Assembly (NCBI RefSeq): GCF_001270965.1
Contig: NZ_LGIA01000069.1
Coordinates: 1 to 37,003 of the forward strand
Length of the DNA stretch: 37,003 nucleotides
Reading direction: 5' to 3'
Origin: Sunxiuqinia dokdonensis
GTDB taxonomy: Bacteria > Bacteroidota > Bacteroidia > Bacteroidales > Prolixibacteraceae
Shown here: piece by piece, positions 10,249 to 34,920 of the stretch
How positions within the stretch are numbered: position 1 is the stretch's first letter
How the letters are laid out: each line of letters begins with the position of its first letter
Translations under genes and position numbers: made by a program
Notes under the pieces: generated by a model
Told to the model about the DNA's origin: nothing
The model's input: the letters and a program-made list of their open reading frames with translations, nothing else
Database searches by the model: none

Positions 10249-13200
10249 CTACTTCTCTTCCCGAGCCTCAAGCTTAACCACTTGCTCGGCACCGCCGTAT
10301 TTATTCTCGGAACGGGCTGCCAAAATAATAGCAACGACCACAACAGCGATGGTAACAAACACAAAGTTTGGCACTTCCGGCGCATCGCCCGAAGCATAGG
10401 AGTGCATGCCCGACAAGTAGTAGTTCACACCAAAAAAGGTCATCATGACTGAAGCAAAACCAACCAAGCCCATGGCACTCAATGAGAAATGGGTGTACAT
10501 TCCCGGTACTTTACGCAAATGAATGATAAACGAGTAAACCAGAATGGTGACCAGCGCCCAGGTTTCCTTCGGATCCCAGCCCCAGTAGCGGCCCCACGAT
10601 TCGTTGGCCCAAACACCACCGATGAAGCAACCAATTGTCATGAGCACCAACCCAACGATGAGCGCCAATTCAATAATCAGAGCAAGTTCAACAATGGTGA
10701 ACGAAGCTTTTTTCAGGTTCTTTGGTGTACGGAACATCATGATGATCAGGTTTAGAAAACCAAGCAATGCAGCCACACCAAAAAAACCATAACTTGCGGT
10801 AATGACCGCCACATGAACAATTAGCCAATAGGACTTCAGCACGGGAACAAGATTCGTAATTTCCGGATTCATCCAACTCATGCCAGCCACCATCAAAATT
10901 AGCGAAGCCAAAATCGTGTTGACAGCCAGGGTGATATGAGATTTTTTCAGAAAAACAAAACCCGACAGTAAAGTGGCCCAACCAATGTACAACATGGTTT
11001 CGTAGCCGTTACTCCAGGGCGCATGGCCCGAAATATACCAACGAATTGCCAAGCCTGCGGAGTAAGCCAAGAACAGCAAAGCGACCAAGGCGGTACCAAC
11101 CGTTAAAAATTTCTTCGCTTTAAAATGATTACTGAAGATTCCGACGAGATGAATGATTAAGAGGAAGAATCCGACAACGCCACAAATTTTTGACAGCAAG
11201 CCAAAAATGTTCCAGTTATTGTAGCGAATTTCCCATTTAATTTTTGCCTGGCTTGGCATAATCTCACTGCCATGCGTCCGCTGGAAATCTTTCAGAACCG
11301 CCAATTTTTGATTGGCTAAGCGATAGTCGTCTTGACTGATGGCCACGTTAACCGCTTGAAAATAATCAGTCAGCAAATGAGCGTGGTCTGCTTGATGTTC
11401 CGGCTTGGCGTAAAATTCCTTTTCGGTGACCCATTTATTATTCTCATCATTTAATATCGGGAATACTTTTAGAAAATCGCCTTGAAAAATTTGATATACG
11501 ATATTCATGCGTTCGTCTAAACTGAGTACTTCCTTGTCGTATTTATTTCGCTGGGTAGGCTGCTTTTTATAGGTCTCATCCACCAGTTTCTGCAGCTTGT
11601 AAACGCCAGTTTGCGGATCGAGCATTTGGTTGAACGACACCATGTTGTCTCTAAAACCAAGTTGCTTCTGCAGTTCACTGTTCGAAATGCGTATGATGGG
11701 CACATTTCCCCAGGCAGCCGGGCGAACGCTCATACCCAGGAAAACTTCGGTAGCCGACATGCCTTCAAACTTACTCTTTTTATTGATTTTTCGAAGCACC
11801 TTATCAGCCAGCGTATTGACCGGCTCCACACGGCCTTTGGGATCCTGCACAAGCAAAGTCTCAAACTCGGCAAGATGGCTCTTGTCGATAGAAAACTGCT
11901 GGCTGTTTTGCGCAATGAGCGCTGTTGGTAAAACCAGCAGAAAACCCAAAACGACAGTGGCGAATGCTTTATTCTTCAATTCTTTCAGCCGGTTGCCGGA
12001 ACGCAGTAAGGCTTGAAAACGGCTCTTCTTATTGAAAAACATGAAAATCATCCCCAGGGTCATCAAAAAGTAGCCAATGTAAGTGACTACCGTTCCCAAA
12101 TAATCGTAGCTCACCGACAGTACGGTTCCCCTTTCATCCGTATCGTACGATGACTGGAAAAAGCGAAATCCTTCGTAGTCTAAAATATTATTCATAAAAA
12201 TCCGGTAGGGCATTTCCACCTGGCTGCGTTCATCAATCAAGGTAACCTCGCTGGCGTACGACGATGGACTCATACTTCCCGGGTAGCGTTCGAGCTGAAA
12301 ATCATTCAGATGAATCTTGAAGGGCAGTTCAATCAGCTTCGGCCCAAAACTCAGCTCAACATCCACATTTCCATAGCTGATTCGGGATGGTCGGGCTTGT
12401 TCTCCCGAGTTTTTGTAAACCACCACCTGCTTTTGCTGCCCATCCAGTTCTACGCCAAGCATAATGGCGTCGCTGGCCTGCGAAGCCTGATTGCCAGTGG
12501 CAGTTGCCAGTACTTTCCGGCCATGAGGAATATAAGATTTCATGGCAAAAATATGATTCCCAATTTGGTACATTCCGCGCGAATTGACCGCAATTTCCTG
12601 TTCCGGAGCAACCACCTGCTCAACCGTTCCGCTCATAGCCACGACCTGCACGCTGTCCTTTGCGGTCATCACCAATCCATTGTTTGAACGCCGAAAATAC
12701 AAGGCTGAATTTTGACTTTCGCCTTCGAAACTGATTCGAAATGAACCGAAAGACATTTCTTCATTCAAAGCCATCACCACATCATCGCGCGACGCGTTGC
12801 GATTGACCAGAATAAATGAAATCAGCGGGATGCCGCCTTCGTCGGCCACAATGTTTTCGACTGCCGACGGCACATAATCCAGCATCTCAATCTCCAGTTC
12901 CTTGCCGCCAAGCTCCAGCTCTTTGCTGAAAGCATTGCGGGTGTATGGCGAAAACATGACTTTCCACTCATCCTGAGCAACTTGACTATCGGCCCGGGCT
13001 TCAACATTGATGTAGGTATCTGAGGAAATAAGCTTATTTGAGGCCTGCCCTTCGCGAATGTGCATCATGCCTTCATAGCTGTAAAAACGCGTAATTCCGG
13101 ACCCCACCAGGATGATGATAAACGCCAAGTGGAACAAAACCATACTCCACCGCTTCAACTGGAACGATTTGTAATACAGCAGACTTCCCACCAGGTTGAT

Positions 13201-13374
13201 GGCTGTAACTCCCAACAAAATATTGAACCACCAGGCATTATAAACCAAAATTTTGGCGGTCTGGGTACCATAATCATTTTCAATAAAGGTTGCATAGGCA
13301 ATGGCAACTGCAAAAATTACAACCAGGCAAGAGCTGGTTAACATGGAAAACATAGCCGACTTTATTCTTTTCAT
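10249..13374 (-). CDS. ccsBA: Fused cytochrome c synthase ResB-CcsA (CcsBA, system II)
   Basis: A 1041-residue membrane protein that carries heme across the inner membrane and ligates it to CXXCH apocytochromes. The N-terminal part (about 1-460) is ResB/Ccs1-like with paired membrane segments and a large periplasmic domain. A central periplasmic region (about 490-720) follows, then a CcsA domain with several membrane helices. The tryptophan-rich WWD heme-handling signature WGRYWGWDPKETW is at 927-939. The fused form is common in Bacteroidota and epsilonproteobacteria. It lies directly downstream of the multiheme cytochrome genes, but a strong terminator separates them, so it probably has its own promoter. 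The ATG at 13374 is clear. Confidence 0.95.
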   Translation of the reverse strand: MKRIKSAMFSMLTSSCLVVIFAVAIAYATFIENDYGTQTAKILVYNAWWFNILLGVTAINLVGSLLYYKSFQLKRWSMVLFHLAFIIILVGSGITRFYSYEGMMHIREGQASNKLISSDTYINVEARADSQVAQDEWKVMFSPYTRNAFSKELELGGKELEIEMLDYVPSAVENIVADEGGIPLISFILVNRNASRDDVVMALNEEMSFGSFRISFEGESQNSALYFRRSNNGLVMTAKDSVQVVAMSGTVEQVVAPEQEIAVNSRGMYQIGNHIFAMKSYIPHGRKVLATATGNQASQASDAIMLGVELDGQQKQVVVYKNSGEQARPSRISYGNVDVELSFGPKLIELPFKIHLNDFQLERYPGSMSPSSYASEVTLIDERSQVEMPYRIFMNNILDYEGFRFFQSSYDTDERGTVLSVSYDYLGTVVTYIGYFLMTLGMIFMFFNKKSRFQALLRSGNRLKELKNKAFATVVLGFLLVLPTALIAQNSQQFSIDKSHLAEFETLLVQDPKGRVEPVNTLADKVLRKINKKSKFEGMSATEVFLGMSVRPAAWGNVPIIRISNSELQKQLGFRDNMVSFNQMLDPQTGVYKLQKLVDETYKKQPTQRNKYDKEVLSLDERMNIVYQIFQGDFLKVFPILNDENNKWVTEKEFYAKPEHQADHAHLLTDYFQAVNVAISQDDYRLANQKLAVLKDFQRTHGSEIMPSQAKIKWEIRYNNWNIFGLLSKICGVVGFFLLIIHLVGIFSNHFKAKKFLTVGTALVALLFLAYSAGLAIRWYISGHAPWSNGYETMLYIGWATLLSGFVFLKKSHITLAVNTILASLILMVAGMSWMNPEITNLVPVLKSYWLIVHVAVITASYGFFGVAALLGFLNLIIMMFRTPKNLKKASFTIVELALIIELALIVGLVLMTIGCFIGGVWANESWGRYWGWDPKETWALVTILVYSFIIHLRKVPGMYTHFSLSAMGLVGFASVMMTFFGVNYYLSGMHSYASGDAPEVPNFVFVTIAVVVVAIILAARSENKYGGAEQVVKLEAREEK

Positions 13375-13526: not shown

Positions 13527-15029
13527 TCAATACAAACTAAAATGACACTCAGAGCAGAATGTCGTCCGCCACTGCTCGTTAATATCGACCGGGTGTTTAA
13601 ATTCCAACGGATTTTCTGTTGTTCCATAGGCCAGTTGGTCTACAGTTCCCTGGGCCAGAATATCATGGCACAAATTACAGTCACGCGAAATGACCTCACC
13701 TGCAGCCGTCTCGTGCTTATCGTTGTGGCATCGGTAACAACCATCGGTTTCCAAATGCCCAAGATGATTGGGATAAACAGTCCAGTTCACTTTCATTTCA
13801 GGAAAAATGTTTCGCTTGTATCCTGTTTTTATCGCATCCATCGCCTGATCGTATAGTGCCTTCTTTTCGGTGAGCACCTCCGGATACATAATTTCGTAAT
13901 ATTCGCGGGCATAGGCTTCAATCCCAATCATCGCGCTATCCACTGTTGCATATTCCGTACTGAGGGCGTCCATGGCCACCACCTTAATATCAGGCAATTT
14001 GTTGGAAATGGCTCCTGAGGTAATGTAATCATCAACAAAATTGGCCGGCGACTGATAGTTATGCGATGGGCGGTTATGGCAATCCATGCAATCCATCGTT
14101 CGCATTTCAACTGCATCCAGGTCTACGCCTTCGGTATCAATTGTTCGGTCTTCGTAAATCTTTACTTCCCCGGTTTTCAAATTGGTGTACCGCACCCATG
14201 GAATGGAGTGACGCCCTTCATCAATGGCCCGATATTCAATTTTGATATCCGGATTGATATGCCAGTGAATTCCCTCTTGCAAGCCTTGAGCACTATAGGT
14301 TGCACTCGTTTTCATCATCAGGTGAATATCCCACTCAGTGGTGTTTTCATCAGCCAAATACGATCTTTTTGTATTGATTTTCCGGGCATAGAATTTTTCG
14401 GTCCAGTGACATTCCTCGCAGGTTTCGCGTGCCGGACGCAAACTGTGAATTGGAGTTGGAATGGGCTTTGGGTATTTGTTAAACATGACCGAGTAGACCT
14501 GATATAAACCCGAGAGTTTGCTTTTCACATACCAGCCTGCTCCGGAACCCACGTGACATTCGACGCAGCCAACCCTTTCGTGAGCCGATTCCTGATAAGC
14601 TGTGTACTCCGGCTCCATAACCTGGTGGCACAGCTTGCCGCAAAACTCATCCGATTCGGTCAGATGAAAGGCTTCGTAACTCCCGATAGCAGATAAAATA
14701 AGGAAACAAATTGTTCCGGCTACAAAAATAATGGTGGCGTTGCGTACCGATGGCTGATTGAAGTCAATGATCGGCCAATCTTTCAATCGATCCTGTTCCG
14801 GGTGCTCTCTTAAACGCCTTTTTTCTCTCAGGATTCCAACCGGAATCAGGATTAGGCCAAGCACCAACACCATTGGTAACGCGATGTAAATAAAAATCCC
14901 CAGGTAAGAACTGCCGATGTCGAAAACGGCTGAAACGATAAACAGAAACAGGATAATCAATAAACTAATCAGGGCAATGGAGGCTCCGATGATGGATGTC
15001 AAATTTCTAACGGCTTGTGGTAATTTCAT
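13527..15029 (-). CDS. NapC/NirT-like membrane multiheme cytochrome c (seven heme sites, first CX3CH)
   Basis: A 500-residue inner-membrane cytochrome, probably a quinol-oxidising relay. The N-terminus has hydrophobic segments at about 12-34, 43-66 and 98-117; the rest is periplasmic. Six standard heme sites are CVECH (155), CEECH (204), CMDCH (314), CYRCH (431), CNLCH (451) and CSECH (492). The first site, CGKLCH at 130-135, has three residues between the cysteines and is followed by a Met, as in NapC/NrfH first hemes. NapC normally has four hemes and about 200 residues, so this is an enlarged relative. No CXXCK site is present, so it is not NrfA. I chose the ATG at 15029, which gives a NapC-like N-terminus; an in-frame ATG at 15083 is possible. 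Confidence 0.85.
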   Translation of the reverse strand: MKLPQAVRNLTSIIGASIALISLLIILFLFIVSAVFDIGSSYLGIFIYIALPMVLVLGLILIPVGILREKRRLREHPEQDRLKDWPIIDFNQPSVRNATIIFVAGTICFLILSAIGSYEAFHLTESDEFCGKLCHQVMEPEYTAYQESAHERVGCVECHVGSGAGWYVKSKLSGLYQVYSVMFNKYPKPIPTPIHSLRPARETCEECHWTEKFYARKINTKRSYLADENTTEWDIHLMMKTSATYSAQGLQEGIHWHINPDIKIEYRAIDEGRHSIPWVRYTNLKTGEVKIYEDRTIDTEGVDLDAVEMRTMDCMDCHNRPSHNYQSPANFVDDYITSGAISNKLPDIKVVAMDALSTEYATVDSAMIGIEAYAREYYEIMYPEVLTEKKALYDQAMDAIKTGYKRNIFPEMKVNWTVYPNHLGHLETDGCYRCHNDKHETAAGEVISRDCNLCHDILAQGTVDQLAYGTTENPLEFKHPVDINEQWRTTFCSECHFSLY

Positions 15030-15155
15030 AAGGATAGCTTTTAGAGTAAATGTTATTTCAATTGCTGATATATCCTTGCTCATTCAGACCTAATCCTAGC
15101 CCGAACTACTTAAACACCAAACAAAAAACTACCCTTTTATCCCCCAGTCGACTAC

Positions 15156-15806
15156 TTAGCTTTTTTTGTTCTTTTCAGACGGGTGAACATCATGATATCC
15201 ATTAACGATACTCCGGAAATTGTCCAACGGATTTTTACCAATTGATGCCACATAAATATGAATCAACAGGAAGATTGAAATCAAAAATCCAACAGAACCG
15301 TGCAAAATGGCCGTTAAAAAGACCCCGCTAACGGAGTAGACCTGTTCAATAATCAATTCGGGAAACAAAAGGGCAATCCCTGTAACAATTGCCACAGGAA
15401 CAAACACGTACATCACAAAAATATAAGCATACTTCTGCAATGGGTTAAACTTCCTCTTTTCAGAAATCGGAAACGGACTCTCCTCGCCTTTAAACAAACC
15501 TGAGATGTAATAATTGACTTGTTTGGTTACCCGTTTAACCAATCCTTTTGGTTTGATTTTGTAGTATTTTTTATTTGGTGTAACCAGATTTCCAACGAAA
15601 AAGATAAAATAGTTGACCGTGACAATGATACCGAAAATATTGTGCAGTTGTACGGCTAAACTAAAATCCATGGGCATCAGGCTCAATTCAGAATATTGAA
15701 GCCGAATCCCGGTTAAAATCAATAAAATAATCCCGATGGCGTTAATTCCATGCCAAATGCGCAGCCACACCGGATAGAGGTATATTTTGTTATTCTCAGC
15801 AGTCAT
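15156..15806 (-). CDS. Di-heme cytochrome b/b561-type membrane subunit
   Basis: A 216-residue membrane protein with four hydrophobic segments, resembling the cytochrome b subunits of hydrogenases and thiosulfate reductases, which pass electrons between quinones and periplasmic partners. Candidate heme-b ligands are His19 (RIWHG), His55 (QLHNIFG), and the two histidines of ILHGSVGF and LIHIYVAS near the C-terminal half. A positively charged loop (KYYKIKPKGLVKR) sits mid-protein. It starts 2 bp after the stop of the seven-heme gene, so the two are probably translationally coupled. The 126 bp before the NapC-like gene show no terminator. Its partner is inferred from position. Confidence 0.85.
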   Translation of the reverse strand: MTAENNKIYLYPVWLRIWHGINAIGIILLILTGIRLQYSELSLMPMDFSLAVQLHNIFGIIVTVNYFIFFVGNLVTPNKKYYKIKPKGLVKRVTKQVNYYISGLFKGEESPFPISEKRKFNPLQKYAYIFVMYVFVPVAIVTGIALLFPELIIEQVYSVSGVFLTAILHGSVGFLISIFLLIHIYVASIGKNPLDNFRSIVNGYHDVHPSEKNKKS

Positions 15807-15808
15807 AA

Positions 15809-16753
15809 TTACTTACTTTTTTTGACGATCCGGAAAATCCAGTGAATGGCGATTCCGATTACAGCCAACCCAAAAATAATAAAGCTTAATAGTTTCAGCA
15901 AGGGATTTTGGTTCGCACCTATAATATAGGCTTCGTTGGTAATCAAAGCTCCCAGTGCTCCATCTTCCGAACGAGCCTGCAAATTTTCGTATTTGTATAA
16001 CGATGCTTTCAACATCGAATTTGACGAGTGACAATCGTTACAATTTCTTAATGCCTCTTCTTTAGGCAAAATATTATGCGAAACCATGAATGAGTCAACC
16101 ACAACGGTATGACATTCGATACAACGAACCTTATCGAAGTGTAGTTTCTGATTTGGCAACCAGTCGTGCACCTGACTAAGTTTCGGACTTTCTTCGGAAG
16201 ACATGGTTTCGAATCTCAGTGCGTTGTCGTGACAAGACAAACACATGTTGTTATTATAAGAAACGATTTCAGAAACGTTGCTGCTTGTTCGTGCCGTTGC
16301 CCGGTAGTAGTGTTGGTCATGGCACTTGGAGCAGGTAAAACTCTCGCCACTTTTCTGAAAGTGAATGCTCTTTTGAAATTCTTCTTCAATTTTGTCGAAC
16401 TGGTAGTCGGCATAGGTATCATCGCCTCCATGGCAGTCAATACAAGTCGCCAAAGGTTCCAGTTTCAATTCGGCGTTGTGTGGGTAAGTTTCATAATCAG
16501 GCGAATGACAATCAGTACAGCTAAACCCTCCATGAACGCCGGCCACGTAATTAATCGAATCTAAAACATAAAAAGGATTCATCATCCTTTTGGTTTCAAC
16601 TTCCAACCACTCATTAAAAAACGAATACGTATGATTGGCATGACAGTTTAAACAATGGCTATTTTCGGCGGGCATTTCTTTATCCTGCCCACTGGATAAA
16701 TTCCCTACTGAAAGAAATGCAATGAGTAAAAAACTCCTAAGAAAATTTGACAT
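15809..16753 (-). CDS. Anchored seven-heme c-type cytochrome
   Basis: A 314-residue periplasmic cytochrome with a signal peptide (1-22) and a C-terminal membrane anchor (about 285-309) followed by a basic tail. Seven CXXCH sites start at residues 34, 79, 104, 141, 171, 211 and 238, with many extra histidines suited to bis-His ligation. No CXXCK or other catalytic heme motif is seen, so it looks like an electron carrier rather than a reductase. It is coupled to the cytochrome b gene by a 2-bp gap. A GC-rich hairpin separates it from the monoheme cytochrome upstream. I cannot assign it to a named family beyond multiheme cytochrome c. Confidence 0.88.
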   Translation of the reverse strand: MSNFLRSFLLIAFLSVGNLSSGQDKEMPAENSHCLNCHANHTYSFFNEWLEVETKRMMNPFYVLDSINYVAGVHGGFSCTDCHSPDYETYPHNAELKLEPLATCIDCHGGDDTYADYQFDKIEEEFQKSIHFQKSGESFTCSKCHDQHYYRATARTSSNVSEIVSYNNNMCLSCHDNALRFETMSSEESPKLSQVHDWLPNQKLHFDKVRCIECHTVVVDSFMVSHNILPKEEALRNCNDCHSSNSMLKASLYKYENLQARSEDGALGALITNEAYIIGANQNPLLKLLSFIIFGLAVIGIAIHWIFRIVKKSK

Positions 16754-16770
16754 TTGTTTGTGGAGATTAA

Positions 16771-16796
16771 AAGCCGGAAGTTAAGGCTTCCGGCTT
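16771..16796 (-). terminator. Intercistronic hairpin within the cytochrome locus
   Basis: AAGCCGGAAG (16771-16780) and CTTCCGGCTT (16787-16796) form a perfect 10-bp GC-rich stem with a 6-nt loop. On the minus strand only TTTTAATC follows, so it may be a leaky terminator or a transcript-processing or stabilising element between the monoheme and seven-heme genes. Confidence 0.55.
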
Positions 16797-16805
16797 ATCA
16801 AGTTC

Positions 16806-17234
16806 TTACTTCAGTGTTTTGATATAATTAACCAAAGCCCAACGGTCTTCTTCGTCCGGGATTTTGCTTTCGTAGTTTGGCATTTCGTCACGACCAATAA
16901 TGGATTGATAGTAGATCACGCCATCCGACTGTTTTTTAAAGGCTTCAGCAGTCATTGAATGAATTTTGGTTTTCATACTGGCTGCTTTTGGTCCGTCACC
17001 TTCTCCATTGTTTCCGTGGCACGAACGACAATGCTTGATATAAAGAATTTTTCCTACCCGATCCAATGATTCATCACCGGCATAAGGATTTTCCATCTTC
17101 ACATACTTTTCAGGCACATCCCATGGTGCCGGGTCTTTTTGATCTTGAACAGTTACAAAGGACAGCAACAAACTGCCTACAAATACGACGACTGACAAAG
17201 TCAATAAATTTCTGTACTTTTTCATTTCCTTCAT
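16806..17234 (-). CDS. Monoheme cytochrome c (class I)
   Basis: A 142-residue cytochrome c with an N-terminal hydrophobic segment (about 9-27, signal peptide or anchor). One heme site, CRSCHGNNGEGDG, starts near residue 69 and is typical of class I cytochromes. A distal Met ligand is probable in GRDEMPNYESKIPD, and the C-terminal helix is WALVNYIKTLK. It would shuttle electrons between the inner-membrane cytochromes and outer-membrane partners. It starts 13 bp past the DUF5777 gene. A second in-frame ATG at 17225 is an alternative start. Confidence 0.92.
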   Translation of the reverse strand: MKEMKKYRNLLTLSVVVFVGSLLLSFVTVQDQKDPAPWDVPEKYVKMENPYAGDESLDRVGKILYIKHCRSCHGNNGEGDGPKAASMKTKIHSMTAEAFKKQSDGVIYYQSIIGRDEMPNYESKIPDEEDRWALVNYIKTLK

Positions 17235-17247
17235 TTTTTATTTATTA

Positions 17248-18192
17248 TTAGAAACTCCACAAACGGGTAATTGTAAACCCTATCGCAAAGTTATCAAAAT
17301 CGATGCCAGTATTATTATTAATCATCATGTCCTGCAACAACATAGCTGGCGAGTTACCCATATAAATCTGGAAAGCATGTGTACTGGTAGACACTTCGTA
17401 TCCAAATGACAAGTTTGGTTCCGGGTGGTAAGGTCCATCCCATCCTGGCGTGTTCGTTGAGTTCCAGTCCGGATGCTGTTCCGAAATACCGTCAATTTGC
17501 AGAGGAACGTCATAATTAAAAATAATGGCCCCTTGAGGACTTACTTTTAACCGGCCATTAAAATGCAGGCCTACACGATCGTGGTCGTGCCACTGAGGTA
17601 CAAAATTGGCATGCGAAAAACTAACTGCTCCTTGCACTGAAAGGGCATTGGTAACTTTTCGGCCAATAATCAACTGTGCAAAATAAGATAACCGATTGTT
17701 AAATTTGTAATCAAATTTTTGTCCCGGCTCTTCAAAATTGAACAGTTCAACATCATCCCGATTCATCCCGTCAATAGCCGCATTGGCATAAACGGTCACA
17801 AAAACAGGTACCTGGTTTTTTCTTGTTTGCTCAAAAATGGTCCATTTGGCATTAAAATCGTTGTACATGTTTCTTTTGGAAATTCCCCAGCCAATCTGCA
17901 CATTGTTGGCCACGACGTAGTTCAGTCCAAGTCTGATGTTTCCTGCTGGAGCATAAATCCCCCAAAGGTCCGAGCTACCATTGTCAATTGAGCCAAATTT
18001 GTGCTGAATAACCATCTCCAAGGTCTTTACCGTTGGAATATGCGAAGTCTGTTGATCAATCAGCATTCCACTTTCCCAGGCAAACCGAACAGGTTTATCT
18101 TTTTCTACAACGTCAGCTGATTCTTCATCCTGAGCAAACAAATTAGTGCAAACAAACAGACCTAAGAGGATATATAATATTGTCTTCTTCAT
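17248..18192 (-). CDS. DUF5777-type beta-barrel protein
   Basis: A 314-residue protein with a clear signal peptide (1-20, ending LFAQ) and amphipathic strands ending in the aromatic ITRLWSF, as in outer-membrane barrels. The features RFAWESGMLIDQQT, VIQHKFGSIDNG and LGLNYVVANNVQIGWG match the DUF5777 family of Bacteroidota from memory. The family has no proven function; genes of this type often sit beside c-type cytochromes. Here it is flanked by a monoheme lipoprotein (22-bp gap) and a monoheme cytochrome (13-bp gap). A role as the porin part of an electron conduit is therefore a reasonable inference, not an observation. Confidence 0.8.
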   Translation of the reverse strand: MKKTILYILLGLFVCTNLFAQDEESADVVEKDKPVRFAWESGMLIDQQTSHIPTVKTLEMVIQHKFGSIDNGSSDLWGIYAPAGNIRLGLNYVVANNVQIGWGISKRNMYNDFNAKWTIFEQTRKNQVPVFVTVYANAAIDGMNRDDVELFNFEEPGQKFDYKFNNRLSYFAQLIIGRKVTNALSVQGAVSFSHANFVPQWHDHDRVGLHFNGRLKVSPQGAIIFNYDVPLQIDGISEQHPDWNSTNTPGWDGPYHPEPNLSFGYEVSTSTHAFQIYMGNSPAMLLQDMMINNNTGIDFDNFAIGFTITRLWSF

Positions 18193-18214
18193 AGTAGATT
18201 TCTTTTTATTTTCA

Positions 18215-18592
18215 CTAATTATTTTGTGCTCCCTGCTGGATCCATACTAAAATATACTGCCCTTGGGCTCCTGTATACTGGGCGTGAGTGTGTGTTGAAG
18301 CTCCCGCCTTAACGTACGAGTAGATCAGGCTTGATTCCGGATTGTCGCGGTTAATATATTTTGCGGTATTGATGCTCTGGTAGGCATTGGCAGCAGATAA
18401 ATCCGGCGCTCTTCCTCCCGAGTTGTGGCAACTGGCACAATTTGCCGTAAAGATTGGAAGTACGTCTGTCGCAAAACTTAGATCCTCCTCAACCGGGATA
18501 TCTGGAATTTCCTCCGGGGCAACAAAATCATACTCGCAAGCACCAACGGCCAGAACAAGGAAAAGACCCAGTAATAGTTTCAAATTTTTCAT
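18215..18592 (-). CDS. Monoheme cytochrome c lipoprotein
   Basis: A 125-residue lipoprotein. A signal peptide ends in the lipobox AVGAC, giving lipidated Cys19. One heme site, CASCH, follows FTANC. The stretch DVLPIFTANCASCHNSGGRAPDL is of the PSCyt/cytochrome c-like type found in many Bacteroidota surface proteins. The acidic segment EEIPDIPVEED after the lipobox could act as a spacer or export signal. It begins an operon with the DUF5777 protein, which it precedes by 22 bp, and is separated from the six-heme gene upstream by a terminator. Outer-membrane placement is inferred. Confidence 0.88.
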   Translation of the reverse strand: MKNLKLLLGLFLVLAVGACEYDFVAPEEIPDIPVEEDLSFATDVLPIFTANCASCHNSGGRAPDLSAANAYQSINTAKYINRDNPESSLIYSYVKAGASTHTHAQYTGAQGQYILVWIQQGAQNN

Positions 18593-18621
18593 ATTGCGTG
18601 GTGTTTAGCTTATAAACGATT

Positions 18622-18654
18622 AAAAAAAAGCTTCCTCGTCAGAAGCTTTTTTTT
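18622..18654 (-). terminator. Bidirectional-type terminator between cytochrome modules
   Basis: An A8-GCTTC arm (18622-18634) pairs with GAAGC-T8 (18642-18654) around a 7-nt loop. It lies 17 bp past the six-heme gene stop and before the monoheme lipoprotein gene. It implies separate transcription or partial read-through. Confidence 0.85.
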
Positions 18655-18671
18655 ATTTATAATTCCTGTGA

Positions 18672-19697
18672 TTATTGCAGTGCTTCGATTGAGTTCTGAA
18701 GTAGAGCTTTAGTGTAAGCTGGGTTGTGAACACCCGCACTCTGATCTTCGGTGATGTGCATGTAGTTCCAAGCAGCACCCAAAACTTCAAGAGAAACGTT
18801 CGCCCCTGTAACAAGACTACCATCAACCATAGCGCCTTCGGCTTCCAACAGATCTTCCAATTGCTCAAGTAAACCAGCAATTTCTGTTAATCGTCCGCCT
18901 ACGTCAAAGTTGGTAGCACTACCGTGACATTCTGTACAAGCGTCAATTGCAGGGGTAGCAAAATGGTGATTTGATTCATCCATATGACAAGAAACACAAC
19001 CAAGCTCGGCATGTCTGCTTGCGGTACTACCTGATTCAGGATAGGCAACACTACCAGCAAATTCACGGCCACCGGTTCCAACCAGCATATTGGCTTGCGA
19101 AGAATAGTGAGGGCCATAGCGGTTAGGAATAGAAGTGATTACATTGCCATCGCTATCAGTATCGGAATAAGCACGCCTGGACTGGTGGCAGTTAACGCAC
19201 ATATTTGAACCGCCTTCAAGGTTTACCTCTACGGTGTTGTCAGCGATCAAACTAACAGCTTCATCGATTCTGAAATAAACGGCATTGCCCGCTTCATCTT
19301 CAAATACAGGAGTTTCACCATGAGTATGGCAGGTTGTACAGTTAATTGGTGATCCTGACACATCATCACCACCTTTCAGATACGCAACAAATCCCACTCC
19401 TGAGTGACAATCAGCACAGCCAGATCTGGTACCAGCATATCCTAAAGAGCTTCCTGTAGCATGACCTGAAGATGCCCACTGGGCTTCAAATCCGTCCATG
19501 GTTTCGGTATTGTGACAATCAATACAAAATGCAGAACCATCGGCACCTGCAGCGCCGTCTGTTCCGTCAACACCATCTATTCCATCAGCACCATCGGCAC
19601 CATCAATTCCCGGAGGGCCTTCCTTAACACACGCGGGGATAATAAACAATACCAGCGAGGCTACAAACAACAACTTGGTTATTTCTCTGAGTTTCAT
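18672..19697 (-). CDS. Six-heme c-type cytochrome lipoprotein with collagen-like stalk
   Basis: A 341-residue lipoprotein. The signal peptide ends IIPAC, giving lipidated Cys23. Residues 27-54 are uninterrupted Gly-X-Y triplets, mostly G(A/I/V/T)D, a collagen-like stalk. Six CXXCH sites follow: CIDCH (58), CADCH, CTTCH, CVNCH, CVSCH and CTECH. The C-terminal 70 residues are helical with no heme site. The heme arrangement resembles decaheme-like surface cytochromes only in general terms. Triple-helical stalks imply a trimer and would project the heme domain from the membrane; this is inference. An FNR-box-like site lies about 125 bp upstream of its ATG, and a terminator follows the gene. Confidence 0.9.
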   Translation of the reverse strand: MKLREITKLLFVASLVLFIIPACVKEGPPGIDGADGADGIDGVDGTDGAAGADGSAFCIDCHNTETMDGFEAQWASSGHATGSSLGYAGTRSGCADCHSGVGFVAYLKGGDDVSGSPINCTTCHTHGETPVFEDEAGNAVYFRIDEAVSLIADNTVEVNLEGGSNMCVNCHQSRRAYSDTDSDGNVITSIPNRYGPHYSSQANMLVGTGGREFAGSVAYPESGSTASRHAELGCVSCHMDESNHHFATPAIDACTECHGSATNFDVGGRLTEIAGLLEQLEDLLEAEGAMVDGSLVTGANVSLEVLGAAWNYMHITEDQSAGVHNPAYTKALLQNSIEALQ

Positions 19698-19822
19698 ACG
19701 CTTATAAATTTAGTACATTCATATAATCTGGAATCTCTTCCAATTCTTTAGTTTGAGCGTAAAAGTATAATTGAAAGCACTAATTTCGAAGACCTGAGAG
19801 GTGACATAATTCGAGAGAAAAA

Positions 19823-19836
19823 TTGACATATATCAA
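19823..19836. promoter_or_regulatory. FNR/CRP-type operator candidate
   Basis: TTGACATATATCAA matches the FNR consensus TTGAT-N4-ATCAA with a single mismatch, and the flanking bases extend the palindrome to 18 bp (19821-19838). It sits at the 3' edge of the FNR-like gene, about 125 bp upstream of the six-heme cytochrome ATG. The binding protein is not shown; the adjacent regulator is the obvious candidate. Confidence 0.55.
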
Positions 19837-20562
19837 TTAGCCATTTTTGCTGATTTTTGTCAGCTCCGGCTCATTCAAAATCTCAATTTCACTGCGGCTT
19901 TGCTTGATGATGCCGGAGACTTCCAACTCCTTCATATTTCGAATGAAACTCTCTTTGGTCATGCCTGACATCTCAGCAAATTCTTGCTTGCTGAGTTTGT
20001 AGCGAAAAGGATTTGATTTGTAGATTTCGTTTTTCAAATATAGCAAGGTATCGGCCACCCGACCGGGCATATATTTTTGAGTCAAACCGATCAGGGTATT
20101 GAGCATCTCAATATTTTGCTTGTTGTTATATTTAAGCAGTTCGTAGGCAAATTTACTATTCCGGGCTAAAATGGTATGCAAGCGGGTTGAATCGATAAAA
20201 CAACATTCAACTGTAGTCAAGGCTGTCACCGTAAAGTGTCTTATATCATCACTAATCACTCCCCCGGCAGTCACCAAGCTGTGGGTTGAGATCAGTTTTA
20301 AAATCACATTCTTGCCATTGGCTCCTTCTGCCACCACTTTTGCCAAGCCTTCTTTCATGCACACAAAATGAGTTGTAGACGTGTTTTGCTTAATGATGGT
20401 CTCTCCGGGATTAAAAACAACATTGCGTTTGCAAGTCATCAAATAATCCATATCCTCCTTCGACAAACACTCAAATATGCTTGACTCCGCCTCGGGCAAA
20501 CACCGCATACAACACGACTTGGCGCAGTTGATACAATCTTCTATTTGTGATTCTTTAAACAT
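19837..20562 (-). CDS. Crp/Fnr-family regulator with cysteine-rich N-terminus
   Basis: A 241-residue regulator with a cyclic-nucleotide-binding-like sensor domain (about 25-140) and a C-terminal winged helix with the HTH segment LSKQEFAEMSGMTKESFIR. The N-terminus carries Cys at 10, 13, 17, 18, 21 and 32. A CysCys pair at 120-121 aligns by position with the fourth cluster ligand of E. coli FNR (Cys122). This suggests a redox-sensing [4Fe-4S] cluster, though the N-terminal spacing is not that of FNR. I chose the ATG at 20562; the longer frame starts with TTG. It lies immediately upstream of the cytochrome locus on the same strand and probably controls it. Confidence 0.9.
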   Translation of the reverse strand: MFKESQIEDCINCAKSCCMRCLPEAESSIFECLSKEDMDYLMTCKRNVVFNPGETIIKQNTSTTHFVCMKEGLAKVVAEGANGKNVILKLISTHSLVTAGGVISDDIRHFTVTALTTVECCFIDSTRLHTILARNSKFAYELLKYNNKQNIEMLNTLIGLTQKYMPGRVADTLLYLKNEIYKSNPFRYKLSKQEFAEMSGMTKESFIRNMKELEVSGIIKQSRSEIEILNEPELTKISKNG

Positions 20563-20892
20563 CCCTGTCAAAACTCGCTAATTAAAGAATAGTATATTTT
20601 CGCATAAATATATATATTAATATTCTCATGCTTCAGGTTTTCATATCCTATTTTAATAGTCGGATAATTGCCTGCAAAAATAAAACGCTTTAATATACTG
20701 ACAATAGGCTAATTAAAAAAGTGATGGATTAAAAAAAATGTTGTAGAATATCCCTTCTTTATTTTCGAACCAAAAACAGAGATTCCGAAGAAATACCCGA
20801 GGAGGTTGAAGCAGGAAAACAAACCTAGAAACCGCGTCTTATTGCCAGCTACAATCCCCAAAATCCCACGAAGTAAACAATACATAACATGA
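20563..20892. other. AT-rich intergenic region, no gene seen
   Basis: These 330 bp upstream of the FNR-like gene are AT-rich, with an alternating AT run near 20607-20620. I see no open frame of plausible content, no RNA gene, and no FNR-like palindrome. It probably holds the regulator's promoter. Confidence 0.5.
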
Positions 20893-31551: not shown

Positions 31552-32528
31552 GTGAAAAAGGCTTTCGTCGTCCTTATCCTACTAAATATCTGCATGCTGA
31601 CCAATGGCCAGGATGCCAACTATTCACAATTTTACGCCAACCCACTCTATCTCAACCCAGGGTTTACCGGAACTTCGGCAGCGCCAAGGCTGGTTGTCAA
31701 CTACCGCAACCAATGGCCTCAAAAAGGAAACACCTACGTCAATTACAGCTTATCGTGCGATCAGTATTTTAAAAAGATGAAAGGCGGAGACTGGGTGCGC
31801 AGTTTCAAAACAGCACCGAATTGAACGGGCTGATCGAAACTTCCTCAGGATACCTCTTTTATTCGCACCACGTTAAAATGAACGAGCGCCTTTTCTTTGA
31901 TCTGGGTCTTCAGGTCGGCATGACGTATAAGAAATTGGATTACGGACGGCTCATCTTTCCGGACATGATTGATCAACTCACGGGCATTACTTTTCCCGGA
32001 AATGGCGAACAGCCCGAAAACGCAAGCCTGCTGTATCCTGATTTTGGGGTGGGTGCCCTTGGGCAATACGATGCTTTTTATTTTGGATTCAGCCTCATGC
32101 ATCTCACCCAGCCGGATGAATCGGTTTTTGTGGGTGATCAGAAAGGCCGCCTGCCCATGAAAATCACCCTGCACGCCGGATCGCGAACCCGAAAGTGGCA
32201 CCGCGGCTTGCTGTCGCGCGAATTTACCCTATCGCCAAACATCATTTACCAACAGCAGGGCGCATTCAAGCAAATCAACCTGGGCATGTATATCCTGGAA
32301 AAATCGCTGGCTGGCGGACTTTGGTACCGGCAAAACCTGGGCGTACAACCCGATGCGGTGATCGCCATGATTGGCATTATGAAAGACCGCTTCAAAATTG
32401 GCTACAGCTACGATTATACCTTGTCAAAACTATCGAATTACGCCAGCGGATCGCACGAATTTTCCCTGACTTTTTTCATTGGCGAAAAACACACCAACCG
32501 CGATGCACTGATGATTCCTTCGCTTTAA
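31552..32528 (+). pseudogene. PorP/SprF gene broken by an apparent GA duplication
   Basis: The first frame (31552-31824, GTG start) has a signal peptide and ANPLYLNPGFTGT, then KKMKGGDWVRSFKTAPN and a stop. The second frame (to 32528) supplies the rest, YLFYSHHVKMNERLFFDLGL onward. Removing one GA from GAGA at 31787-31790 joins them as KGGLGAQFQNSTELNGLIET, which fits the family's GGLG turn, giving a 324-residue protein like its 320-residue neighbour. The frames are offset by exactly two bases. It is a recent pseudogene, a phase-variable gene, or a sequencing error. Confidence 0.85.
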
Positions 32529-33886: not shown

Positions 33887-34092
33887 TTTCAACTTTAGCC
33901 AGCTAATTTAGAATTTTACACAGAAAGTGACAACCGGCTGAAAATCTTTTCAGAATATTTAACGATTGAAACGGATACCCAGACACAACCAACGAATTAT
34001 TCGATTCAGGATTAAACAGGCGCGAATCATTTCATGAAAAACGATCGTAAGCTTCGGGTAAAATTCCTTTTTTTTGATGAACTTTGAGGCCA

Positions 34093-34920
34093 ATGAAATC
34101 AGAAAAAATCCACCAAAACGACTTCATTGTCAACAGTTGGGAAGAGTTGTGCGAAGAAGTGTACCGCGATTCATGGAAACCACACCTGACGCGATACCGA
34201 TCGGATTATGCATTTCGCGGATTGTCGGATGCCGGCTACGAACTAAAAAACAGCTTTCTGCGCAACTGTGGACAGCGTCCCGAACTGGAATATCACCTGC
34301 TACGGAATTTTCGCAAGTACAGTATTTCCAAAGACGCCCAGCTGACGGCTTCGTTCTGGCGATCACTGGTCATGGCGCAACACCACGGACTCCCCACCCG
34401 CTTGTTGGACTGGACTTATTCGCCCTTTATTGCCATGCATTTTGCCACGGCCAATACCGAAAAGTTTGATTTGGACGGCGTGATTTGGAAAGTGGATTTT
34501 GTGAAAGTAAACCGACTGGTTTCCGAACCGCTCAACCATTTGCTGCGCGAAGAAAGATGCAATGCGTTCACCATCGAAATGCTGGAAGAAAGCATCATGT
34601 CCTTGTCTGACTTCGACAAAAAACTAAACAAGGAGCAAGTCATCTTTTTCGAGCCACCCTCTATCGATCAGCGCATTGTAAACCAGTATGCTTTCTTTTC
34701 GGTGATGACCCAGCCCACAAGCATCATGGACGAGTGGTTGGTCGATCATCCTGAACTCTACCGAAGGATTATCATTCCAAAGGAATTGAAATGGGAGGTG
34801 CGTGACAAGCTCGACCAGGCCAACATTACCGAGCGGGTGCTGTTTCCCGGGCTGGACGGACTGGCTACCTGGCTAAAGCGGCACTACAAACCAGCCACCA
34901 ATGACCTGGCCGGCGAATAA
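34093..34920 (+). CDS. FRG-domain protein
   Basis: A 275-residue cytoplasmic protein with an FRG domain: YAFRGLSDAGYELKNSFLR near residues 36-55, then MAQHHGLPTRLLDWTYSPF near 95-115, the two hallmark segments. The conserved Phe-Arg-Gly and the Thr-Arg-Leu-Leu-Asp-Trp are intact. The domain's biochemical role is unknown, although FRG proteins recur in phage-defence and toxin-like settings. Here it is a lone gene between a barrel protein and metabolic genes, so no defence island supports that. I use the ATG at 34093, since the frame begins with TTG at 34084. Confidence 0.9.
   Translation: MKSEKIHQNDFIVNSWEELCEEVYRDSWKPHLTRYRSDYAFRGLSDAGYELKNSFLRNCGQRPELEYHLLRNFRKYSISKDAQLTASFWRSLVMAQHHGLPTRLLDWTYSPFIAMHFATANTEKFDLDGVIWKVDFVKVNRLVSEPLNHLLREERCNAFTIEMLEESIMSLSDFDKKLNKEQVIFFEPPSIDQRIVNQYAFFSVMTQPTSIMDEWLVDHPELYRRIIIPKELKWEVRDKLDQANITERVLFPGLDGLATWLKRHYKPATNDLAGE

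Follow-up and report, generated by a model that had tools for sequence, protein, structure and literature searches.

Searches of genomes for electroactive bacteria rely chiefly on proteins resembling MtrB or Cyc2. MtrCAB and the Geobacter conduits comprise a quinol oxidase, a periplasmic carrier, an outer-membrane unit and a surface cytochrome, and a comparable series is predicted for a gene cluster of Sunxiuqinia dokdonensis (Bacteroidota; Prolixibacteraceae). The cluster lies in a stretch of 37,003 nucleotides, referred to here as the window (contig NZ_LGIA01000069.1, positions 1 to 37,003, forward strand; assembly GCF_001270965.1, a 4.96-Mb draft). It differs from MtrCAB in lacking a 26-strand barrel, a periplasmic multiheme plug (none found) and an MtrB homologue over cut-off. 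Other described systems resemble individual parts of it. ImcH of Geobacter is marked by three N-terminal membrane helices, a CX3CH motif near them, six CX2CH motifs and a length of about 495-519 amino acids (PMC6295460), and CbcL, MtrH and MtoC join a multiheme periplasmic part to a PF01292 cytochrome b. OcwA of the Gram-positive Thermincola is a surface terminal reductase related to NrfA and itself shows weak nitrite reduction (PMC6703420), and in Cyc2 one heme and a barrel make up the outer-membrane unit. The genes and elements of the cluster, with the names used below, are as follows.

19837 to 20571, minus strand: CRP/FNR-family regulator (PF00027 and PF13545), adjoining the operon, with N-terminal and central Cys
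19823 to 19836, no strand assigned: FNR-box-like palindrome TTGATATATGTCAA, upstream of the c6LP gene
18672 to 19697, minus strand: c6LP, six-heme lipoprotein with a collagen-like Gly-X-Y stalk (six CXXCH)
18621 to 18655, minus strand: hairpin followed by a U-rich stretch, between c6LP and monoLP (consensus scan, 15-pair stem)
18215 to 18592, minus strand: monoLP, monoheme c-type lipoprotein (one CXXCH, VGAC lipobox)
17248 to 18192, minus strand: DUF5777 outer-membrane beta-barrel of about 12 strands (PF19089, AlphaFold2 (AF2) model)
16806 to 17234, minus strand: mono, predicted periplasmic monoheme cytochrome c carrier, optional (PF00034/PF13442, one heme motif)
15809 to 16753, minus strand: c7, periplasmic cytochrome of seven hemes (seven CXXCH), anchored by a single membrane helix at its C-terminus
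15156 to 15806, minus strand: cytb, cytochrome b561-family quinol-binding subunit (PF01292 at 2e-25, four transmembrane regions)
13527 to 15083, minus strand: NapC7, ImcH-type inner-membrane protein with seven hemes (NapC/NirT at 5e-9; six CXXCH and one CX3CH)
10249 to 13374, minus strand: ResB/CcsA-type cytochrome c synthase for heme attachment (Ccs; PF01578 at 1e-35, PF05140 at 3e-23)

The cluster is read here as a conserved, probably FNR-controlled system of anaerobic electron export from menaquinol to the outer surface, a prediction given a probability of about 0.6. Quinol would be oxidized by the ImcH-type protein together with a split CbcL-like module formed by cytb and c7; family membership is observed for these proteins and their activity is predicted. 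The seven-heme arm of c7 and the monoheme carrier would pass electrons to the outer membrane, the crossing would be aided by monoLP and the small DUF5777 barrel acting like a split version of a fused cytochrome-porin, and the stalked c6LP would hand the electrons to Fe(III) or Mn(IV) oxides, chelates, humics or shuttles. The order of the genes fits a path from quinol to the surface, as an earlier note on this DNA had supposed. Among Bacteroidota, Labilibaculum has been observed to reduce metals by a route to which no genes are assigned (PMC5760507), and the cluster offers an operon that can be tested, complete with a regulator and a probable site for it to bind. Should the crossing of the outer membrane proceed as proposed, it would need a much smaller amount of protein than MtrCAB does. 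The range of barrels regarded as conduits would then have to be redrawn, and genome-based searches for electroactive bacteria of marine sediments would be broadened.

Gene content, conservation and regulation

The earlier note counted 22 heme c sites over eight genes of a single strand, with the cytochrome c synthase after them, and this description is borne out by the reading frames, by Pfam matches (which also include cytochrome c and c7 families) and by a heme-motif scan, whose count of 22 over the eight genes includes one CX3CH site (CGKLCH). All frames are open across the span given there, 13527-20562, but the longest frame of the regulator starts with TTG at 20571, position 20562 being an internal ATG. 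The likely start of NapC7 is Met19 (about 15029), which is kept in 91% of 47 sequences. The absence of a CXXCK heme was likewise correctly noted, the same heme-motif scan listing no CX2-5CK motif. No Rfam family scored above its gathering score in the window.

DUF5777 was searched for in the genome of the window and 60 relatives (E <= 1e-10) and is present in 38 of these 61. Among 40 stretches taken around the matches, from the relatives and the window's own genome, 29 contain the c7-type cluster with its order largely kept; the other 11 are without c7, and YceI stands beside DUF5777 in nine of them. A set of 80 named loci, a non-random sample made up of the best 80 of 243 relatives by c7 profile, contains cytb in 78, DUF5777 in 78, monoLP in 76 and c6LP in 71, together with FNR in 59, the carrier in 46, NapC7 in 38 and Ccs in 30. 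All five core genes occur together in 69 of the 80, the 11 loci without the full core being mostly short contigs or loci at contig ends. The monoLP gene is directly upstream of DUF5777 in 77 of 79 cases, the remaining two lying at contig ends, and cytb comes right after c7 in 78/80 loci. Carriers include Sunxiuqinia, Gaoshiqia, Tangfeifania, Mangrovibacterium, Mariniphaga, Maribellus, Draconibacterium, Carboxylicivirga, Marinifilum and Labilibaculum. Since the cluster recurs in 29 of the 40 stretches and the core in most of the 80 loci, the association of these genes is not due to chance, and the conservation of gene order in other genomes, which the earlier note had put forward for checking, was found. 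The c7 profile matched 9 of 395 genomes at E <= 1e-30 in a phylum-wide sample, own genome included, and the system is therefore lineage-bound.

The palindrome TTGATATATGTCAA lies just past the stop codon of the regulator, 126 bases before the c6LP start, and is the sole site in the 37-kb window with at most one mismatch to TTGATNNNNATCAA; with up to two mismatches allowed, 48 window sites were counted against 33.9 expected, a mild excess. Upstream of 88 distinct c6LP genes there are 34 perfect and 34 one-mismatch sites, where shuffles give 0.2 and 2.9, and upstream of 95 monoLP genes, several of which lead their operon, there are five perfect and five one-mismatch sites against 0.1 and 2.0 expected, all of these counts being non-independent to the extent that the sequences are related. 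Similar sites occur also where no regulator gene adjoins (e.g., L112 and L113). The FNR-type boxes upstream suggest anaerobic use. Within 43 close homologues of the regulator Cys13, 20, 21, 24, 71, 123 and 124 are 86-100% conserved and Cys16 65%, and in a wider set of 77 only Cys21, 24 and 124 exceed 90%; the protein is a putative Fe-S sensor. The hairpin at 18621-18655, with T-rich tails on both strands, is weakly suggested to be a partial terminator (10 such sites vs 6.8 expected over the region) and may bring about differing expression levels within the operon.

The inner-membrane half

NapC7 begins with three membrane helices (hydropathy peaks at 36-54, 67-85 and 116-134), beside which stands CGKLCH (CX3CH) at 148, and has six CX2CH motifs in a total of about 500 (500-518) amino acids. 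In helices, hemes and length it agrees with the published description of ImcH, by which it is assigned to that family, the corresponding activity being predicted. It differs from Geobacter ImcH in standing with a cytochrome b and c7, and in being fused to cytb in three loci of a distant group.

The c7 protein has its membrane helix at 285-303 and, in 95 sequences, seven extra invariant His outside the heme motifs together with His304 (98%) by the helix. It is the probable electron outlet of a quinol dehydrogenase. Four His of cytb (His19, 55, 169 and 183) are invariant in 87 sequences. Judged by these families, the c7/cytb pair is a split CbcL-like module, which differs from CbcL, MtrH and MtoC in being encoded by two adjacent genes with seven hemes; in the homologue L219, c7 and cytb form one chain without internal stops. 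The cytochrome b and the ImcH homologue are likewise one chain without internal stops in the following distant loci.

L222, 9348 to 11561: cytb-ImcH fusion, one chain
L225, 9265 to 11472: cytb-ImcH fusion, one chain
L226, 9338 to 11545: cytb-ImcH fusion, one chain

Because they are fused in these relatives, c7, cytb and the ImcH-type protein are suggested to form one complex. Five CbcL-type proteins and one ImcH homologue had already been counted in Bacteroidetes (PMC6295460), and the inner-membrane half is thus not new in kind. The "undescribed conduit" of the earlier note accordingly consists, in its inner part, of known kinds (ImcH and a split CbcL-like module), and it is the outer part that looks undescribed.

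Several loci carry further redox genes. A 19-heme protein is encoded nearby in 18 of the 80 named loci; the one that was scanned (L105:11698-14529) has a PF01292 domain, and a 19-heme protein with such a cytochrome b domain is taken, on that architecture, to be an additional quinol oxidase of the CbcL-like kind. In 22/80 loci there is also a small c554-like protein with four hemes, a carrier variant of the same system. After cytb in L150 (11530-14782) stand ferredoxin and NrfD genes and a third gene without a match, with related genes in five loci; this ferredoxin/NrfD module is perhaps an alternative quinone module.

The outer-membrane half

In c6LP the lipobox Cys23 and six extra His are conserved at 90-100% over 72 distinct homologues, and since there are six conserved extra His for six hemes, the hemes fit bis-His coordination. 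The lipobox Cys is mostly followed by T/V-K-E-G-P and then by a collagen-like run, which reaches at least four Gly-X-Y triplets in 71 of the 72. The best PDB match of the c6LP profile is 6i5b (6.6e-14), which we take to be the structure of OcwA, followed by NrfA (5e-10) and octaheme reductases, with MtrC chains behind 6i5b and NrfA at 5e-6. The code 6i5b appears in the OcwA paper (PMC6703420). When c6LP is aligned with OcwA or NrfA, the hemes are spaced alike and both the C-terminal helices and a conserved "S-x-G-x-HN" segment correspond; c6LP differs from them in its six hemes, lipid anchor and collagen-like stalk and in having no CXXCK. PF02335, the family model of NrfA, gives matches to the c6LP genes of five relatives, over cut-off in three. 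The AF2 model of c6LP is poor (predicted local distance difference test (pLDDT) score of 67.5); none of the 34 Foldseek matches obtained with it reached E 0.001 or better, although the titles of the first 23 all name a cytochrome c or octaheme nitrite reductase. From its heme core and C-terminal helices c6LP is assigned to the NrfA/OcwA superfamily, as a candidate surface terminal cytochrome.

The earlier note saw no relation between these protein families and MtrABC. This stands for the barrel, no MtrB-type match (TIGR03509) exceeding the cut-off in any of the 61 genomes, own included, with two weak sub-cut-off matches in other genomes; it goes too far for the cytochromes, as PF22113, which covers domains II/IV of MtrC and MtrF, is over its cut-off of 30 bits in both c7 (33.9) and c6LP (32.8), and the c6LP profile reaches MtrC chains, though with better matches to 6i5b and NrfA.

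DUF5777 of the window matches PF19089 at 4e-64 (216.7 bits vs a curated cut-off of 23.1). Its AF2 monomer has a pLDDT of 83 and 12 strands of at least three residues, and the top Foldseek matches are FapF, COG4313 channels, OmpG, NanC and KdgM, whose TM-scores, normalized to the query, are modest and do not exceed 0.48 in the 50 matches listed. The backbone radius of a 12-strand barrel is about 12 Å against about 23.5 Å for 26 strands, calculated by the standard formula with assumed shear numbers. A single DUF5777 barrel, having 12 strands and this radius, therefore cannot sheathe c6LP or hold the folded monoLP domain, and the barrel able to hold a cytochrome, on which the earlier note's comparison with porin-cytochrome conduits depended, has to be given up. 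A sheathed conduit resembling MtrAB is unlikely, at least for a single barrel, given the 12 strands and the lack of a TIGR03509 match over cut-off.

In monoheme cytochromes a Met or His at the ligand column serves to coordinate the heme. Of 91 distinct monoLP sequences from c7 loci, 90 show His close to the column where the Met ligand usually stands and two show Met there, one sequence having both. The partners of a second DUF5777 type have Met at this column in 27 of 27, and YceI is in the locus for 26 of these. Upstream of window-like DUF5777 genes without c7, four sequences were found, two with His and two with Met, and when every DUF5777 gene whose best score is to the copy of the window is included, the partner is of the His type in 92 of 95. 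Exchange of Met for His is the change to be expected if the potential had moved from high to low, and the monoLP heme looks bis-His.

DUF5777 also occurs in other surroundings. A second locus in the window's own genome (L067, on contig G000:C190) has YceI and a monoheme lipoprotein with DUF5777 and no multiheme genes nearby, and loci of this kind occur widely across the phylum. Isoprenoids or quinones are the ligands of YceI. A third context is provided by L063 and L065, where DUF5777 is accompanied by neither c7 nor YceI but by other genes for small cytochromes.

In a distant group the place of monoLP and DUF5777 is taken by another protein. Among nine stretches from distant genomes (L219-L227), c6LP was recognized in four (L222, L224, L225 and L226) and in none of L219-L221, L223 and L227. 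In each of these, the genes lying between c6LP and the homologue of c7 begin with one protein of 394-431 residues that has a single N-terminal CXXCH and a long tail with an aromatic end, followed by a smaller gene (with a Rieske domain in L222, the one scanned) and then a small monoheme gene.

L222, 5537 to 6736, strand not stated: replacement protein
L225, 5528 to 6712, strand not stated: replacement protein
L226, 5278 to 6546, strand not stated: replacement protein
L224, 10565 to 11860, minus strand: replacement protein

No Pfam match was obtained for the three of these that were scanned, and no PDB match. The replacement protein shows no sequence relation to DUF5777 (hhalign probability 5%) and a weak one to monoLP (29%); from length, composition and aromatic end one may guess that it is a barrel.

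A redox role of monoLP and DUF5777 is suggested by the cytochrome pairing, the ligand switch of the partner and the heme-carrying replacement in the distant group. It is tentatively proposed, as a possibility that we put well below an even chance, that the two form the smallest outer-membrane electron conduit known to us, with one bis-His heme and a 12-strand barrel, as the split counterpart of the heme-carrying chain of the distant group, feeding a stalked OcwA-like c6LP on the surface of many marine Bacteroidota. The unit would resemble Cyc2 in joining one heme to a barrel, and has same-slot relatives with an N-terminal heme and a long tail; it differs from Cyc2 in being divided over two genes and in having 12 rather than 16 strands. 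The Cyc2 motif AXPXFAR[Q/K][T/Y], as given in PMC8406198, is absent by eye in monoLP and in the four same-slot relatives, which have for instance ARPQYSILQ. No paper on DUF5777 was found in the literature search, and no description of the cluster among the titles and abstract openings listed on extracellular electron transfer in Bacteroidota, on Prolixibacteraceae, on Draconibacterium, Sunxiuqinia and Marinilabiliales, on ImcH/CbcL in Bacteroidetes and on Melioribacter/Cyc2; the outer-membrane half, for which no description was found in the literature searched, looks undescribed.

Alternative roles, direction and phenotype

The chief alternative to electron export is a periplasmic reductase for a soluble N, S or metal compound, in which c6LP would face the periplasm and DUF5777 would admit the substrate. 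The likeness of the c6LP profile to NrfA and octaheme nitrite reductases, with which the Foldseek titles agree (none at E 0.001), speaks for such an enzyme, as do the over-cut-off PF02335 matches in c6LP of three relatives, the resemblance of DUF5777 to the small solute channels NanC and KdgM, and the weak nitrite reduction by OcwA (PMC6703420). However, c6LP has no CXXCK site, six extra His stand against its six hemes so that no site is obviously left free, and a collagen-like stalk is in our judgement unusual for a periplasmic enzyme. A true NrfA is encoded on another contig of the window's genome, and four cluster carriers at least 90% complete (G013, G021, G033 and G050) gave no NrfA match. 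Nor was a reductase gene seen to recur nearby in the scans that follow. In the 80 loci, the open reading frames of at least 130 amino acids that lie no more than 8 kb from c7, 405 in all, were grouped into 73 clusters present in at least two loci and 123 singletons. Representatives of the 73 clusters were scanned jointly (best 25 of 140 matching families), 20 of them, picked for length or frequency, being rescanned singly, and ten accessory genes were scanned separately; the 123 singletons lie outside the reductase scan. Among the matches listed for the cluster representatives there is no molybdopterin, NrfA or other terminal reductase, which agrees with the earlier note, where no known terminal reductase had been seen with these genes. 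Taken together, a periplasmic reductase appears unlikely.

A good deal less probable is a role of DUF5777 in assembly or export, as a channel bringing the lipoproteins or their stalk to the surface (cf. FapF and Slam) while electrons cross elsewhere. The best Foldseek matches of DUF5777 are indeed to the FapF export barrel, 12 strands are too few to sheathe a cytochrome, and two lipoprotein genes lie upstream, yet the strict pairing with a cytochrome in c7 loci (77/79), the ligand switch and the heme-bearing replacement point to a redox role. An inward path, by which electrons from Fe(II), minerals or partner cells would reach quinone or oxidases, is very improbable. Fused cytochrome-porins of similar layout, the Cyc2 proteins, are iron oxidases (PMC8406198) and CbcL-type proteins are known in both directions (PMC6295460), but ImcH homologues were found only in Fe(III) reducers in the survey of PMC6295460, and the sole carrier with a reported phenotype is a metal-reducing fermenter (PMC5760507). 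The FNR-type boxes, which suggest anaerobic use, and the outer-membrane monoheme, which looks bis-His rather than His-Met, also speak against an inward path.

Electron export to the surface finds its one phenotypic counterpart in Labilibaculum manganireducens (L123), which carries the cluster and is reported to reduce Fe(III) and Mn(IV) during glucose fermentation (PMC5760507). Its locus ends at a contig end just past cytb, with no c6LP seen there; in L. euxinus (L128) c6LP is next door on the opposite strand.

Several observations weigh against electron export by this cluster. The link to L. manganireducens comes from one genome and is a correlation only, and the paper on that organism names NrfHA and a ferric reductase as possible agents and calls for more study (PMC5760507). 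ImcH is missing from 42/80 loci, some of which are truncated. A narrow 12-strand barrel does not account for a membrane-spanning tunnelling path of at most 14 Å, the barrel nature of the replacement protein is without Pfam or PDB support, and the surface placement of c6LP rests on lipobox, stalk and homology, its AF2 model having a pLDDT of 67.5. L063 and L065 have DUF5777 with a His-type partner in the absence of c7, and the ligand switch thus does not strictly follow c7. In the phylum sample DUF5777 is present in 110 of 296 genomes; 50 loci were taken, 30 of them short ones and one (G268) counted twice, and three had no recognized DUF5777, leaving 46 distinct loci. Within three open reading frames of DUF5777, YceI was present in 36 of these and a gene for a monoheme protein in 26. 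Because it stands mostly near YceI elsewhere, the DUF5777 family has other roles and is by itself no signal of a conduit.

Other genes were encountered beside Ccs homologues and in the remainder of the window. In L085 (11122-13812; the same locus as L228) a 16-heme cytochrome with a sorting C-terminal domain of the type IX secretion system stands beside Ccs and, judged by that domain, is apparently sent to the surface by this route; in the 61 genomes it has a full-length match only at its own locus, with partial matches in two genomes (fragments L229-L231). This cytochrome speaks in favour of electron export. Two further genes of the window are unrelated to the electron-export cluster, one encoding a PorP/SprF-family protein (31821-32528) and the other an FRG-domain protein (34084-34920). 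The FRG domain occurs in some phage-defence proteins.

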